Shown here piece by piece: positions 1 through 46,830 of a stretch of 46,830 bases of DNA. The translations under genes and the position numbers were made by a program. The notes beneath the pieces were generated by a model that saw nothing but the letters and a program-made list of their open reading frames with translations, was not told the origin of the DNA and ran no database searches. The stretch lies in contig JADCJC010000075.1 in assembly GCA_020247395.1 (NCBI GenBank), positions 1 through 46,830 on the forward strand, given 5' to 3'. This DNA is from Rhodocyclaceae bacterium (GTDB lineage: Bacteria; Pseudomonadota; Gammaproteobacteria; Burkholderiales; Usitatibacteraceae). How positions within the stretch are numbered: the first letter of the stretch is position 1; every line of letters begins with the position of its first letter.

Positions 1-197
1 CCCGCCTGCGCGGGGACGGGGTTAGATTAACAACCACCAAACCAATACTCCCCTGCTCCCGCGAAGGCGGGAGCCTAATATCGGAATCACCCGCGCTGAA
101 CAAAATTAATGGGTCCCCGTCCGGAGCAACCCTTGTGGTTGTGCGCGGGGACGGGAATGGCTGAAATGGTTTTCCATATTTGCTTGCCGGATCAATA
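1..197. repeat. Partial copy 1 of the TATTGATCCGGCAA inverted-repeat element
   Basis: From about base 54 to 197 this matches the copies at 36843-37023 and 46650-46830: a GCTCCCGC...GCGGGAGC hairpin, the CCTAATATCGGAATC stretch, a second hairpin built on GTCCCCG...CGGGGAC, and the right terminal repeat ending in GCCGGATCAATA at 197. The left terminal repeat is absent. Instead bases 1-50 hold another hairpin arm (CGCGGGGACGGGG), so this copy is either truncated or inserted into another palindromic repeat whose left part lies outside the window. No gene is visible in 1-279. Confidence 0.75.
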
Positions 198-2941: not shown

Positions 2942-3988
2942 TTACTTCTTGGAAGATGGGCTTGTCGCTGGTGCGTTGGTCGATTTCGCCTCGTTCGCCT
3001 TGCGTTTATCGAAAGCCGCGCGAGTGAACGCTTCGCCGCTGATATCCGCAACCTTGCGAACCAGCGCGTAGTCGTTTTTGTAGTTTAGGGGCACAAAGCG
3101 ATCAGTCCCCCGGAACGCGGTTTCGAGTTCCTTGGGAAACTTGAATTGGAAGGTGCAGCTGATAATCTTGTCACGCAGCTCGGGCGCCAAATCATGCACC
3201 ATGGCCAGACTGCCAGCGGGGAAGGGCGCGCTCTTGTAAATGACGCGAAGCTGGCCTTCTTTCACCGCGCCGCGCTGGATCATGCGGGTCAATACATCAT
3301 CTGCAATCGCCGCCGCGTCGTAGTCGCCGTTAATCACGCTCATGATCGAGTTGTCGTGTTTGCCGGAATAGAGCACTTTGTAGTCTTTGTCCGGCACCAG
3401 CCCCTCGTCGGGAAACAACGCACGCGGCGCGAGGTTGCCTGAGTTCGATGACGGAGAGACGTGTGCGACGCGTTTGCCGACGAGATGCCGAAGGTTCTTG
3501 TAGGGGCTGTCGGCGCGCACCACCATCACCAAGTGATAAGCCATCAGCGTGGGCTTGTTGTTGATGAGGTTGCCGTGAATGGCGAATGGCTGCGCACCCG
3601 CCACGTTGACCGCAAACGGCGTATCGCCGGCGGCGAGCAGACTCATTTGAATGCGGCCAGAGCGCATGGCTTCAACGGTGGCCGCACTCGAATGCACTTG
3701 TAAAAAACGCATCGGGCGGCCCAAGCACTGCGACATGAACTGCACATACGGCGACCACATCTTTTCGTAGGTCGCGGTGTCTTCCTGCGGCGAGTAGCTC
3801 AGCAGAATGGTTTTTGGATTCTTGAGCTTCGAGGCGTCTTTGGGCGCATCCGCGATGAGATTTTGGTTTTCATCGCAGTAAATGGTGTCGAGGTCGCCGC
3901 GAAACTTGCACGACTCATCCGCGCGTGCGGCTGTCGATACCAGCAGGGCGGCAGCGCAGGCCACGCCAAATTTGAAGACGGCGATCAC
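2942..3988 (-). CDS. phnD: PhnD-like periplasmic phosphonate/phosphite-binding protein, paralogue 1
   Basis: Periplasmic solute-binding protein (348 aa) with a signal peptide cleaved near TAARA-DE (about residue 23). The mature part starts with a conserved cysteine-containing segment ([16 protein letters not shown]) shared with the two paralogues upstream. The PhnD-type binding fold follows: [10 protein letters not shown], corresponding to the Ser/Thr ligand loop of E. coli PhnD, and SGKHDNSI with an acidic residue at the ligand-contacting position. The start codon overlaps the stop of paralogue 2 by 4 nt. A lysine/proline-rich tail ends the protein. Which oxyanion it binds cannot be read from sequence. 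Confidence 0.88.
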
Positions 3989-5058
3989 TTCTTGCCGCCT
4001 TGCGCGCTTTGCGATTTCGCCGCTTCGGCTTCGCGCGCCATGCGCTTGTCGTAGGCGGCGCGGTTAAAGCTCTCACCGCTGGCCTCGGCCACTTTTCTGA
4101 CCAACTCAAAATCTTTTTGGTAGTTGAGCGGCCAAAAACGATCCGCACCTTGGAATGCCTTGATGAGGTCCGGCGTGAATTTGAAGCTCATGGTGCAATC
4201 GGCGAGCTTCTTTTGCAGCTCCGGCACGAGATCGTGCGCCATCACCATGCTGCCATTCGGAAACGGCTTCGAGCGATAAATGATGCGCAACTCATCCGGC
4301 TTCACGATGCCCCGCTGCACCATCCGGTCGAGCACGTCGTCCGCAATCGCCGCCGCGTCGTAGTCGCCGGATTGCACACCGGCAATCGAGCTATCGTGTT
4401 TACCCGAATAGAGCACCTTGTAGTCTTTGTCCGGCACCAGGCCTTCGGCCGGAAACAGCGCGCGCGGTGCCAAGTTGCCGGAGTTCGACGACGGTGCCGC
4501 ATGTGCGACGCGCTTGCCCGCGAGGTCCTTCAGCGTCTTGTAGGGGCTCGCTTTTTTCACGATGACAACAAGGCGGTAGCCGGTCGGCCCCTTGGCATCC
4601 CCGCGAATCGCGAACGGTTGGGCACCAGCGATGTTGACCGCAAACGGCGTATCGCCGGACGAAAGCGTAGAAAGTGTGATGCGGCCGGAACGAATCGCTT
4701 CAACTGTCGCCGCCGGCGAATGCACTTGGAAGAAACGCGTTTTCTTGCCGGTGCACTGCGACATGTGGTCCACATACGGCTGCCACAGCCGCTCGTAAGC
4801 CTGGGCGTCCTCCTGCGGCGTGTAGCTCATCAGAATGGTCGACGGGTTCTTGCGCTTCGACGGATCGCTTGGCAGATCAGCGAGCAAGTCTTTGTTTTGG
4901 TCGCAGTAGATTTCATCGAGATCGCCGCGATTGGTGCAGGTTTGTGCCGAGGCGATGCCGACGAAAGTTAGCGCCGTTGCCAACACGACAGCGTTCAACG
5001 CGCCGACCGCGCGGCGCGAGCCAACAAACCCTGATGTCAACGATGCGTTCTGCGGCAC
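3985..5058 (-). CDS. phnD: PhnD-like periplasmic phosphonate/phosphite-binding protein, paralogue 2
   Basis: Second of three tandem binding proteins (357 aa). The signal peptide has a basic start (GSRRAVGALN) and a hydrophobic stretch ending at IASAQ-TC. The N-terminal CTNRGDLDEIYCDQNKDLL segment is close to those of paralogues 1 and 3. The binding-site blocks [15 protein letters not shown] and YSGKHDSSIAG are conserved, and the overall resemblance to paralogue 1 is closest. It is coupled to paralogue 1 by ATGA overlap and follows paralogue 3 with a 15-nt spacer. Tandem duplication, with divergence among the paralogues, suggests different ligand ranges feeding one PhnCE transporter; this is inference. 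Confidence 0.88.
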   Translation of the reverse strand: MPQNASLTSGFVGSRRAVGALNAVVLATALTFVGIASAQTCTNRGDLDEIYCDQNKDLLADLPSDPSKRKNPSTILMSYTPQEDAQAYERLWQPYVDHMSQCTGKKTRFFQVHSPAATVEAIRSGRITLSTLSSGDTPFAVNIAGAQPFAIRGDAKGPTGYRLVVIVKKASPYKTLKDLAGKRVAHAAPSSNSGNLAPRALFPAEGLVPDKDYKVLYSGKHDSSIAGVQSGDYDAAAIADDVLDRMVQRGIVKPDELRIIYRSKPFPNGSMVMAHDLVPELQKKLADCTMSFKFTPDLIKAFQGADRFWPLNYQKDFELVRKVAEASGESFNRAAYDKRMAREAEAAKSQSAQGGKK

Positions 5059-5073
5059 AACATTCTCCCGTGA

Positions 5074-6135
5074 TTATTTTTTAGCTTTGGCGGCTTCCGC
5101 TTCTTTCGCGGTTTGCTTCTCATATGCGCTGCGGTTGAACGCCTCGCCCGAGCCCGCCGCGACCTGCCTTACGACCTCCCAATCCTTCTGGAAGTTCGCC
5201 GGAAAGAATCGATCGGCACCGTCGAACGCTTTCACCATCTCCGGTGTGAAGCGGTAGTCATAGAAACACTTGACCAACTTCTTGGCGAAGCTGGGCTCAA
5301 GATCGTGTGCGTAGGCGAAGCTGGAGGTCGGGAACTTGCTCGACTTGTAGATGATGCGGAAATCGTCTTCTTTGATTTGGCCGCGTGACGCCATGCGATG
5401 GTAGACGTCGGAGGCGACGGCGGCGGCATCGTAGTCGCCGGAATTCACGCCCATGATGCTTTGATCGTGTTTGCCCGAAAAGAGAATCTTGTAGTCCTTG
5501 TCCGGCGTGAGTCCTTCCGGCGGGAAGAGCGCCAGTGGTGCCATGTGGCCGGAGTTGGACGACGGCGAGGTGTGAGCGACCTTTTTGCCCTTCAGGTCGG
5601 CGAGCTTCATGTAGGGCGATGATTTCTTGACGATCACCAGCAGGTTGTAACCCTGAAACTCTTTTTCAGTGCCCTTCACGGCAAACGGCACGGCACCGGC
5701 GATGTTGACTGCAAACGCAGTCGGGCCGGTCGAGAATCCGCCCACGTGCAGCCGACCTGAACGCATGGCCTCGATTTCAGCGGCATTGGAATTGACTTGA
5801 TAGAAGATCACTTTCTTGCCGAGGCAACGGGCAAGCTCTTGCGTGAAGGGCTGAAAAATTTTCTCGTACACCGCAGGGTCTTCCACCGGCGTATAGGTGA
5901 ACACCACCGTGTTCGGGGTCTTGAGCTTGCTGGGGTCTTTCGGCGTATCCGCGACGAGGTCTTTGTTTTCGTCGCAATACATCGCATCGAGGTCACCGCG
6001 GTGTTTGCATTCCTGTGCGGATGCGGCCGTCGGGAGCCATGCGAATGCGCTCGCGAGCAACGCCACGGTCAGCGCCGTGGCGGAAACGAACCACTGGCGG
6101 CCTTGTCTGAACGTCGGTGAAAAATCTGATTTCAT
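5074..6135 (-). CDS. phnD: PhnD-like periplasmic phosphonate/phosphite-binding protein, paralogue 3 (first gene of operon)
   Basis: Binding protein of 353 aa opening the importer operon. It has an N-terminal signal peptide (cleavage near AASAQ-EC), the shared CKHRGDLDAMYCDENKDLV segment, and the PhnD ligand blocks PSSNSGHMAPLALFP and FSGKHDQSIMG. It is the most divergent of the three (MASRG, DFRIIYKSSKFPTSSF). A purine-rich ribosome site (GGGGAG) lies about 6 nt before the ATG. The C-terminal tail is rich in Ala/Lys/Glu. The promoter should lie in the 102-bp gap shared with the divergent TraB-family gene; I could not recognise a Pho box there. Confidence 0.88.
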   Translation of the reverse strand: MKSDFSPTFRQGRQWFVSATALTVALLASAFAWLPTAASAQECKHRGDLDAMYCDENKDLVADTPKDPSKLKTPNTVVFTYTPVEDPAVYEKIFQPFTQELARCLGKKVIFYQVNSNAAEIEAMRSGRLHVGGFSTGPTAFAVNIAGAVPFAVKGTEKEFQGYNLLVIVKKSSPYMKLADLKGKKVAHTSPSSNSGHMAPLALFPPEGLTPDKDYKILFSGKHDQSIMGVNSGDYDAAAVASDVYHRMASRGQIKEDDFRIIYKSSKFPTSSFAYAHDLEPSFAKKLVKCFYDYRFTPEMVKAFDGADRFFPANFQKDWEVVRQVAAGSGEAFNRSAYEKQTAKEAEAAKAKK

Positions 6136-6237: not shown

Positions 6238-7272
6238 TTGAGCCGATACATGACAACTCGTCGCACCCCCGCCGGTCGTTTCTTTCTCGCGTCTATGACG
6301 CTGTTCATGGCCGCATTCGCCGTAGGGGCTTTCCCGCCTGCGACTGCGCAGACCAGCGCCCAAGCCAATCCGCCGAGGCCAACCTCCGCGCCGCCCACGC
6401 AAGATTACGACCCGACACAGAGCCGCGCGTCGCGGATTGAGGAGCGCAAGGACGGTCTGCGCGGGCTGATCTGGGAAGTCAAAACCAAGGACGGTGCCAA
6501 CACCGCGTATCTATTCGGCACCATTCACGTCGGCAAACCCAGCTTCTATCCGCTGCCGCGCGCGGTGCAAATGGCGCTGCTCGCTTCAAACAAGATTGTG
6601 GTCGAGGCTGACGTCACCGACCAATCCGAGGGCAGCGAGATCGCCAAGATTGTCGATTACCCAAAGGGCGAGACGATTGAGCGGCATATTTCGCCGCAGC
6701 TCTTCGCACGGCTGAAAGCGCAGCTGGAGAAACGCAAAATCCCGTATGCCAATGTGTCGGCCATGCGCCCGGTCATCCTCGGCGGCATGCTGCCGATTGT
6801 CGAATACGTGCAGTTGGGCTACGACATGAATTCCGGCTTGGATATGGCGCTCATCAAGCGCGCCAAACAAGAGAAGAAGCCACTCCTCCAGTTGGAATCA
6901 TCCCTCGCGCAAATCAAACTGTTGACCAGCATGCCGCCCGCACTTCAAGAGTCCTTCTTGGACAACGCATTGACCACCATCGAGCAGGGGCGCTCGGCGG
7001 ATCAAGTGACGGGCATTGTGAATGCGTGGCAGGCGGGCGATCCGAAGTTGATGCTCGAACTCGCCGATGACGCTTCGCGCGGGCAGAAAGACGCCGAAAA
7101 GCTCAATCAAGTCTTGCTATGGGGGCGGCATCCGGCAATGATGCAAAAGATCGAGTCGTATCTCGCCAGCGGCGAAACGCACTTTATTGCGGTGGGATCA
7201 TTGCACCTTGTTGGGCCAAAAGGGCTGGTGAATTTGTTGGCGCAGAAGGGGTATTTGGTGAGGCAGTTGTAG
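6238..7272 (+). CDS. TraB/GumN-family protein, exported
   Basis: A 344-aa protein of the TraB/PrgY/GumN family, related to metalloprotease-like Tiki domains. An N-terminal signal peptide runs to about residue 37 (ends FPPATAQ) and is followed by a Pro/Ala-rich linker. The domain then shows the family signatures LFGTIHVG near residue 93, VVEADVTD, and the C-terminal GSLHLVGPKGL. Start choice: TTG at 6238 has GGAGGG 8 nt upstream, whereas the in-frame ATG at 6250 has no ribosome site at the right distance; both leave the signal peptide intact. It stands alone, divergent from the importer operon. The cellular role of bacterial GumN-like proteins is not well defined, so none is assigned. Confidence 0.82.
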   Translation: MSRYMTTRRTPAGRFFLASMTLFMAAFAVGAFPPATAQTSAQANPPRPTSAPPTQDYDPTQSRASRIEERKDGLRGLIWEVKTKDGANTAYLFGTIHVGKPSFYPLPRAVQMALLASNKIVVEADVTDQSEGSEIAKIVDYPKGETIERHISPQLFARLKAQLEKRKIPYANVSAMRPVILGGMLPIVEYVQLGYDMNSGLDMALIKRAKQEKKPLLQLESSLAQIKLLTSMPPALQESFLDNALTTIEQGRSADQVTGIVNAWQAGDPKLMLELADDASRGQKDAEKLNQVLLWGRHPAMMQKIESYLASGETHFIAVGSLHLVGPKGLVNLLAQKGYLVRQL

Positions 7273-7334: not shown

Positions 7335-7811
7335 TTACGCGTTAGACGCGACGCACAAGAGGGCAGTGTTGCCGTTTTCGACGCGACGCCAGTTCACAAA
7401 AGCAGCGCAATCTATTGATCCGGCAATTAAATATGGTGAATTCCTGCCCCCGCGAAGGCGGGGGCCCAATTTTCTATATGTGCCGCGCTAACAAAATTGG
7501 GCTCCCGCCTGCGCGGGAGCAGGGGACTTTTTCACCATATTTAATTGCCGGATCAATAAGAAGGCCGCCCACAACTCAGGACATCTGCTTTTGAACGCGT
7601 GCGCACGGTCAATTTGAAGAACCAGAATTTCGCCAGGAGAAACGTCAACTGTCGACAATCCTGCGCTGGGTTCGTCAACATTAGACATACAATCAATCCA
7701 CGCGTCCATGTTGCGTCCATAGAACTCTGGGAAGCCGAGCGCGCGTTGAAACTCGCTATGAAACGACGACGCGTCTGTTATCGCCGCGCCATTGATGATC
7801 ACCGTTTTCAT
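7335..7811 (-). pseudogene. Barstar-family gene interrupted by a 146-bp inverted-repeat element
   Basis: The 5' part (7559-7811) encodes 85 residues typical of barstar-family RNase-inhibitor-like proteins (LGFPEFYGRNMDAWIDCMS and ILVLQIDRAHAF). At codon 85 the frame runs into a TATTGATCC element and picks up 22 element-encoded residues before stopping at 7488. The missing C-terminus lies intact beyond the element at 7335-7412: DCAAFVNWRRVENG..., then a TAA stop. Deleting the element with one TA copy joins TTC TTA GAT TGC in frame and restores a 110-aa family-length product. The present product would be a 107-aa chimera lacking the last helix/strand, so it is probably non-functional. No cognate RNase is nearby. 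Confidence 0.88.
7413..7558. mobile_element. MITE-like element, copy 2 (inside barstar gene)
   Basis: A 146-bp element with perfect 28-bp terminal inverted repeats (7413-7440 and 7531-7558) beginning TATTGATCCGGCAA, flanked by TA on both sides. Inside are two GC-rich hairpins (CCCCCGC/GCGGGGG and GCTCCCGC/GCGGGAGC) and an inner GCCCAATTTT/AAAATTGGGC pair, so most of the element is palindromic. It carries no gene. The TA duplication is supported by the restored barstar reading frame. Small size, long terminal repeats and TA targets recall Correia-type or IS630/Tc1-derived miniature elements; the mobilising transposase is not in the window. Confidence 0.88.
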
Positions 7812-9614: not shown

Positions 9615-9655
9615 GCGGGCGGTTTCAGGCAAAAATGCTTGGAAATGCCCGTCGT
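9615..9655. repeat. Imperfect hairpin repeat (relative of 217-268)
   Basis: GGGCGGTTTCAGGC ... GCTTGGAAATGCCC with an AAAAAT centre. It is nearly the reverse complement of the 228-266 palindrome, including the TGCCTGAAA and CTTGGAAATGCCCG arms and the following GTTGCT. Here it does not follow a stop codon: it lies between the divergent photolyase and htpG genes, so a pure terminator role does not explain all copies. Confidence 0.6.
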
Positions 9656-36650: not shown

Positions 36651-36842
36651 GGAATTGCTCCGATTGAATTCTTGCTTTGCGATCCCTTGGTTTTCACCGC
36701 CCAATGTGCGTCAATTGGCATCGTAAGCCGCGGGAACTTCTAAAAACTTACTGCGCGGGCGAATCTGTCAGTTCCGGTGCTCGCCGTACACTGGGTACGT
36801 GTCCGCTCCTCACTGCCAACTGCACCCGCTCGCGACGGTTTT

Positions 36843-37023
36843 TATTGATCCGGCAATAAAATATGAATAATTAAGAAGACCCCGCTCCCGCGAAGGCGGG
36901 AGCCTAATATCGGAATCTGCTGCGTTAGATAAAATTGGGTTCCCGCCCGGCGCAACCCTTGTGGTTGTACGCGGGAACGGGGATGGCCGAAATGGTTTTC
37001 CATATTTAGTTGCCGGATCAATA
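36843..37023. mobile_element. MITE-like element, copy 3 (between efflux adaptor and pump)
   Basis: A 181-bp element with TATTGATCCGGCAA-type terminal inverted repeats of about 23 bp (one mismatch), two GC-rich internal hairpins and no gene. It differs from the copy at 46650-46830 at only 3 positions, so spread is recent. The right flank continues GAAGTTCCCC and the left flank ends CGGTTTT, consistent with insertion at a TA. Confidence 0.88.
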
Positions 37024-37042
37024 GAAGTTCCCCCGCGCGAAA

Positions 37043-46569: not shown

Positions 46570-46581
46570 ACACTAGCAAAG

Positions 46582-46618
46582 ACGGGCGTTTTCGGCATAA
46601 AATGGCCGAAAAACCCGT
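46582..46618. repeat. Hairpin repeat after the thioredoxin stop
   Basis: ACGGGCGTTTTCGGC and GCCGAAAAACCCGT pair with one bulge around an AT-rich loop. It begins 13 nt after the stop codon, after CACTAGCAA. The same CTAGCAA...CGGGCGTTTTC stretch follows the phnE stop on the other strand (217-280). No U-run, so terminator function is uncertain; best-paired member of the family. Confidence 0.65.
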
Positions 46619-46649
46619 GGATATTCGAGTTGTTTAACCGGGGAACTTC

Positions 46650-46830
46650 TATTGATCCGGCAATTAAATATGAATAATTAAGAAGACCCCGCTCCCGCGC
46701 AGGCGGGAGCCTAATATCGGAATCTGCTGCGTTAAATAAAATTGGGTTCCCGCCCGGCGCAACCCTTGTGGTTGTACGCGGGAACGGGGATGGCCGAAAT
46801 GGTTTTCCATATTTAGTTGCCGGATCAATA
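46650..46830. mobile_element. MITE-like element, copy 4 (window end)
   Basis: A 181-bp copy with three mismatches to 36843-37023. The left end follows GGGGAACTTC and starts TATTGATCCGGCAA; the right terminal repeat ends on the last base of the window. Contains the same two GC-rich hairpins and no gene. Confidence 0.9.

Follow-up and report, generated by a model that had tools for sequence, protein, structure and literature searches.

A barstar-type gene interrupted by a TA-flanked MITE whose family is concentrated in the terminal repeats of a second element

The window analyzed here, a stretch of 46,830 nucleotides, is the complete contig C107 of a 3.9-Mb draft genome (133 contigs) of a Rhodocyclaceae bacterium. 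A barstar-type gene on its minus strand spans positions 7335 to 7811 and is interrupted by a short repeated element, referred to as element A (Table 1). The genes next to the split gene encode a photolyase and a TraB/PrgY/gumN-type protein, and no RNase gene adjoins it. The best three named-genome matches of the photolyase were 61 to 67% identical and came from Burkholderiales/Betaproteobacteria metagenome bins. An Rfam scan of the window at gathering thresholds gave no matches, nor did an NCBIfam scan of four proteins or a PADLOC run on three proteins. Between positions 7200 and 7950, no promoter-like sites were found compared to 0.5 in shuffled sequences, and four terminator-like sites were found compared to 1.2 (standard deviation, 1.3); two of the four are the main hairpins of element A, one per strand. 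Elsewhere in the window, three diverged copies of a gene, the product of which by eye resembles a phosphonate-type substrate-binding protein, are spaced ~1 kb apart (3237 to 6135).

Table 1. Coordinates of the split gene, element A, and related repeats in the window
Feature	Position	Strand	Basis
Barstar-type gene, codons 1-85 (N-terminal part)	7557..7811	-	PF01337 57.3 bits, profile 1-73 of 96; PDB barstar chains
Element A, 142 bp	7415..7556	.	TA at 7413-7414 and 7557-7558; perfect inverted ends; other copies; RNA fold
Displaced barstar C-terminal part, 25 codons plus stop	7335..7412	-	Profile of eight relatives
Present ORF, 107 aa, final 22 residues element-coded	7488..7811	-	ORF list; PF01337 match
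B copy with 177-bp A (36845-37021) in right terminal repeat	36732..37032	.	
A element, 177 bp, at contig right edge, B end to its left	46652..46828	.	
A element truncated by contig left edge, right end alone seen	1..195	.	

The open reading frame of the split gene starts at the ATG at 7811 on the minus strand. Only residues 1 to 85 of its 107-residue product matched PF01337 (profile positions 1 to 74 of 96), and the family match therefore ends at the edge of the element, as the first-pass annotation had claimed. The N-terminal half belongs to the family by its score (57.3 bits against a cutoff of 23.4), and PDB barstar chains aligned to residues 1 to 44 of the split protein only (E value of 2e-07). 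Codon 85 (TTA) takes in the target TA, after which the host protein acquires the 22-residue tail that had been predicted, read from element A. Beyond the element, the sequence from 7412 down to 7335 encodes DCAAFVNWRRVENGNTALLCVASNA, followed by a stop codon. The boundaries originally assigned to the element hold and its size does not; the element proper is 142 bp (7415 to 7556), and the earlier figure of 146 bp includes both TAs. Upstream of the break, the split protein retains the acidic pair of the barstar motif (YGRNMDAWIDC), two positions that presumably have a functional role. We take the break to fall within the last helix of the barstar fold, with the final strand removed; the PDB match covers residues 1 to 44 only. 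With its fold cut short in this way, the 107-residue product is probably inactive.

Further analysis addressed the proposal that the missing C terminus lies on the far side of the element. Adding the real tail raised the Pfam PF01337 score from 57.3 to 61.1 bits (+3.8), and one of eight shuffled tails reached 62.5 bits; the 25-residue piece by itself had no Pfam match. The Pfam model, which does not separate real from shuffled tails, was dropped as a test of the C-terminal half. Because Pfam alone does not discriminate, a profile was built from eight relatives, six of them plasmid-borne (of nine plasmid records matched) and two chromosomal relatives within the order (the best 2 of the 11 other genomes matched). 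The window protein was left out of this profile, and a Deinococcus deserti sequence that is divergent in its last part was retained. With this profile, the N-terminal half scored 111.8 bits, the actual split product 112.0 bits, and the two halves joined 138.4 bits. None of 1,000 shuffled tails reached 138.4 bits (mean, 114.6; best, 123.9), and the 25-residue piece alone scored 14.6 bits (E value of 0.0017 within that set). An AFVNWRR motif in the C-terminal piece is common to the Granulicella and Paraburkholderia relatives. Homologues of the restored C-terminal half, whose absence would have spoken against the original proposal, are thus present in the relatives of the profile, and the gain from 111.8 to 138.4 bits places the missing C terminus beyond the element. 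Among viral contigs, three pattern matches to barstar relatives were found, none of which was confirmed.

The same result bears on a trivial explanation, an assembly artefact in which a repeat joined two unrelated places in the draft genome. Contig edges fall at or close to many A copies, which means that the A repeat breaks the assembly. However, the flanks of the element at this locus are two in-frame, contiguous pieces of one protein family, with a homology gain that shuffled tails did not match, making such a misjoin very improbable.

Element A has the properties of a MITE: it is short, has inverted ends, carries no transposase gene of its own, occurs in dispersed copies, and is bordered by a TA duplication. 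Its terminal inverted repeats are 28 nt including the TA and 100% complementary (7413 to 7440 and 7531 to 7558), and the element is nearly palindromic from end to end. Its RNA, including both TAs, has a predicted folding energy of -98.8 kcal/mol compared to -43.7 kcal/mol for shuffled sequences (z score of -13.4). The family is multiplied in this genome. The 26-nt end of A, with up to 3 mismatches, was found five times in the window compared to 0.00 expected, and a 23-nt end pattern, also with up to 3 mismatches, gave 50 matches in the whole genome and none for a reversed control. At least 130 bp of A is present at 97 to 100% identity in eight places of the genome, including the barstar site. 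Complete elements from the examined loci of the source genome and two relatives of the same genus, G003 and G009, amounted to 19 when identical sequences were counted once, and 17 of these have TA at both ends. The remaining two have one flank in common and a decayed second end, which argues that they represent one older insertion in two species. Three species in all (L130, position 2570; L219, position 1381; L203, positions 1564 to 1584) carry this flank next to an A end, as expected of an older insertion at one shared site; in one of these species the flank is present at one end. Elements of 142, 157, 174, 177, 178, 306, 503, and 683 bp were found; in the longest forms (503 bp at L143, 1523 to 2025, and 683 bp at L238, 1503 to 2185), an inner hairpin unit is, by eye, repeated many times.

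Matches to the 146-bp A query occurred in 10 of 13 genomes of the genus, in several of them to the inner hairpin part only. With up to 1 mismatch, the A end was found in 4 of 399 genomes of the order, namely, the source genome, two congeners, and one genome of another family (G345); three of the five genus genomes in this order-wide sample, the source genome included, carry it. The A end had no exact match in IMG/VR, and A had no match in plasmids. The genome of the other family has a single perfect A end next to GGAAACTTCTA (L222, 1503 to 1523), with no second A end within 1.5 kb and, by eye, no transposase among the open reading frames beside it. As a separate observation, an MqsR-like toxin gene at the start of contig C31 (L138, 145 to 252, minus strand; PF15723, 48.1 bits, profile positions 55 to 88 of 95) has an A copy at its 3′ end; the upstream part of this gene seems by eye to be in another frame.

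The copy identities also bear on the fate of the protein. Could the element-donated tail work, the 107-residue fusion remaining a functional inhibitor like the palindromic in-frame inserts of other bacteria? The frame stays open for 22 codons into the element, and both acidic positions, to which we ascribed a role above, precede the break. In-frame fusions with repeat elements are known in Rickettsia and Neisseria, according to the part of the source available to us (PMC2229807). However, the tail gains nothing in the family profile (112.0 compared to 111.8 bits), and the high identity among copies points to a recent insertion, which leaves little time to select a new tail. A working fusion is therefore considered very unlikely, and loss of RNase-inhibitor function, as suggested at first pass, is the likely outcome.

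Many A copies have identical outer flanks. These recurrent flanks are not part of A, as ruled out by the barstar copy and by uninterrupted copies of a second repeat, B, whose ends they are. Most B copies measure 122 bp (GGGAACTTCTAAAAACC, inverted at the opposite end), with ends GGGAACTTC, and B was found in 9 of 13 genomes of the genus; its loci include 36732 to 37032 in the window and L182, L183, L185, L187, L188, L192, and L194, among others. Direct repeats of 4 bp flank 7 of the 9 copies with both ends uninterrupted in the source genome and 7 of 11 B-like spans in G003 and G009. The right end of the uninterrupted copies reads TTTTTAGAAG, with a single TA, in 9 of 9, and the left end reads CTTCTAAAAACC in 6 of 9 and is altered in 3 of 9. 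Where A interrupts a B end, the sequence reads TA-A-TA, compared to one TA in the uninterrupted state. Together with the perfect inverted ends and the TA on either side of the element in the barstar gene, this bears out the claim that A inserted there and duplicated a TA. A third repeat is present in the window at 230 to 265, 9616 to 9651, and 46573 to 46640 and in the outer flanks of A copies, frequently just beyond B. It forms hairpins of conserved shape and variable sequence (ACGGGCGTTTTC...GAAAATGCCCGT) that resemble extragenic palindromes.

Some trends were apparent in where A lands. First, of 33 B rows in the source genome, 16 carry A in one end, compared to 9 that are uninterrupted; one is decayed, six run off the edge of a contig, and one is a partial second match. 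Second, both ends of B are used: A is in the left end in 7 of the 16 copies and in the right end in 9, one of these being called from few letters at a contig edge. Third, 28 of 39 A records in the source genome touch a B terminal repeat and 11, including the barstar site, have no B flank, although these records may double-count some insertions because many end at a contig edge. A stricter count by ends found a B flank at 33 of the 48 A ends with a readable flank. Since B contributes roughly 82 of the ~98,000 TA sites in the genome (extrapolated from the TA density of the window), the excess of A in B is very large. Transport of A within a moving B would also raise this count. The presence of A in either end of B, and the several lengths of these A elements, favor repeated insertion. 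At one locus, a 157-bp A stands between two outer B ends, with the B core missing (L153, 1527 to 1683).

The ends of B are shared with a 1,307-bp IS on contig C91 of the source genome (L267, 4 to 1310), one end matching B at 17 of 17 bases and its counterpart having 2 mismatches. This IS encloses a 272-residue frame in which PF01609 and a portion of PF05598 were recognized, a presumably IS5-like combination, and judging from its ends it is the likely driver of B. The IS may be inactive because the N-terminal part of its transposase may be in another frame. G009 has a stretch similar to it with decayed ends. Four other PF01609 loci (L265, L268, L274, and L291) were set aside, having B-type ends on one side only or B copies nearby. 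For A, searches with PF13358 and PF01609 did not find a transposase. PF13358 gave no matches in the source genome, a draft from which multicopy IS elements may be missing, and two matches in 1 of 28 genomes of the family, with no A ends near them. No IS630-type (PF13358) partner of A was thus found in these genomes, and no A ends were present around PF01609 loci either, 30 of which were inspected out of 56 matches in three genomes. Tentatively, A and B may be two-tier parasites: the transposase of A would prefer a site of approximately AACTTC-TA-AAAACC, found in B as its terminal repeat, and B in turn would be driven by the resident PF01609-type IS. A would multiply inside B and break its ends, and landings in genes such as the barstar gene would be rarer and at partly matching TAs.

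Among 12 relatives of the genus, none was seen to have the same split protein, a pattern that would have counted against the original interpretation; their only barstar match is a weak one at a different place in G003 (37% identity over 43 residues). In G003 and G009, htpG directly follows gumN with neither barstar nor photolyase between them. The barstar-photolyase block is therefore accessory, being absent in both relatives with a readable locus, and this absence means that no empty site is readable in a sister genome. In the other nine gumN-carrying genomes of the genus, neither htpG nor a clear barstar or photolyase was seen in the readable gumN flanks, which are thus little informative. 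Barstar matches were present in 12 of 100 genomes searched, the source genome included, the best others being 40 to 42% identical and from another family.

The first-pass annotation also cautioned that losing an antidote would be lethal if its RNase were present in the genome, and the split gene could have been the sole antidote of a resident RNase. A barnase-type RNase is indeed present, the one PF00545 match in the draft genome in a search that used PF00545 only and could miss an RNase of another family (C84:112484-112780). However, it is directly followed by its own intact PF01337 gene (C84:112906-113193), so losing the split barstar need not be lethal, and the split gene has photolyase and TraB/PrgY/gumN-type neighbors. 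A costly loss of a sole antidote is thus highly improbable, and the fear of lethality is not borne out. Orphan immunity genes have been recognized before, and the split gene was probably one of them.

Taken together, the data favor, at roughly 90%, insertion of a nonautonomous MITE (A, 142 bp) into a barstar-type gene that is accessory and an orphan, with duplication of the TA at the insertion point. A DDE-type transposase acting in trans would have moved A to this TA, duplicating it and breaking the frame after codon 85. Expression may be lowered further by the strong mRNA hairpin, which, by analogy with NEMIS as described in the portion of PMC2229807 at hand, could have a role in mRNA decay. 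No lethality would be expected, the single barnase-type RNase found having its intact barstar beside it. What the locus displays directly is an insertion at a TA, the duplicated TA, a multiplied A family, and a broken barstar frame.

Several of these features have precedents. The split gene shares with barstar (the barnase inhibitor, PF01337) an N-terminal half that aligns to the family and to barstar chains of solved structure; it differs in being interrupted after residue 85 and in having no adjoining RNase gene. RUP of Streptococcus pneumoniae, a MITE linked to IS630-Spn1 that favors sites with IS elements, is like A short and noncoding with inverted ends and a TA target, in the text accessible to us (PMC2229807). 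In contrast, no IS found here could be linked to the ends of A, and the favored target of A is a single MITE, in its terminal repeat, although A also lies inside a gene. Correia/NEMIS of Neisseria shares with A its size class, TA ends, a strong RNA hairpin, and some copies in reading frames, as far as the same partial text describes it (PMC2229807); the likeness is by description, and RNase III processing is a feature of NEMIS not shown for A. At the QMITE2/IS1111 hot spots of Coxiella, one mobile element repeatedly enters MITE copies, as reported in the available part of PMC5896051; there an IS enters a MITE, whereas here MITE A enters the TA within the terminal repeat of MITE B. TA-ended MITEs, MITEs in reading frames, an IS-favoring MITE, and a MITE as an IS hot spot were therefore already published in the sections of these sources available to us (PMC2229807, PMC5896051). 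No paper on a MITE and barstar together was found in an open-access library, and among the titles listed there for nested insertion, none resembled the A-in-B arrangement.

We class A as a new family within an established type of element, and breakage of a gene by a MITE is itself ordinary. The locus provides a clean single-genome case of a gene inactivated by a MITE with the insertion point resolved to the base, in which an orphan RNase inhibitor was lost and the paired RNase-inhibitor locus is intact. The broader value lies in the A family, which, with no known transposase, has many copies and a strong bias to the terminal repeat of another element.
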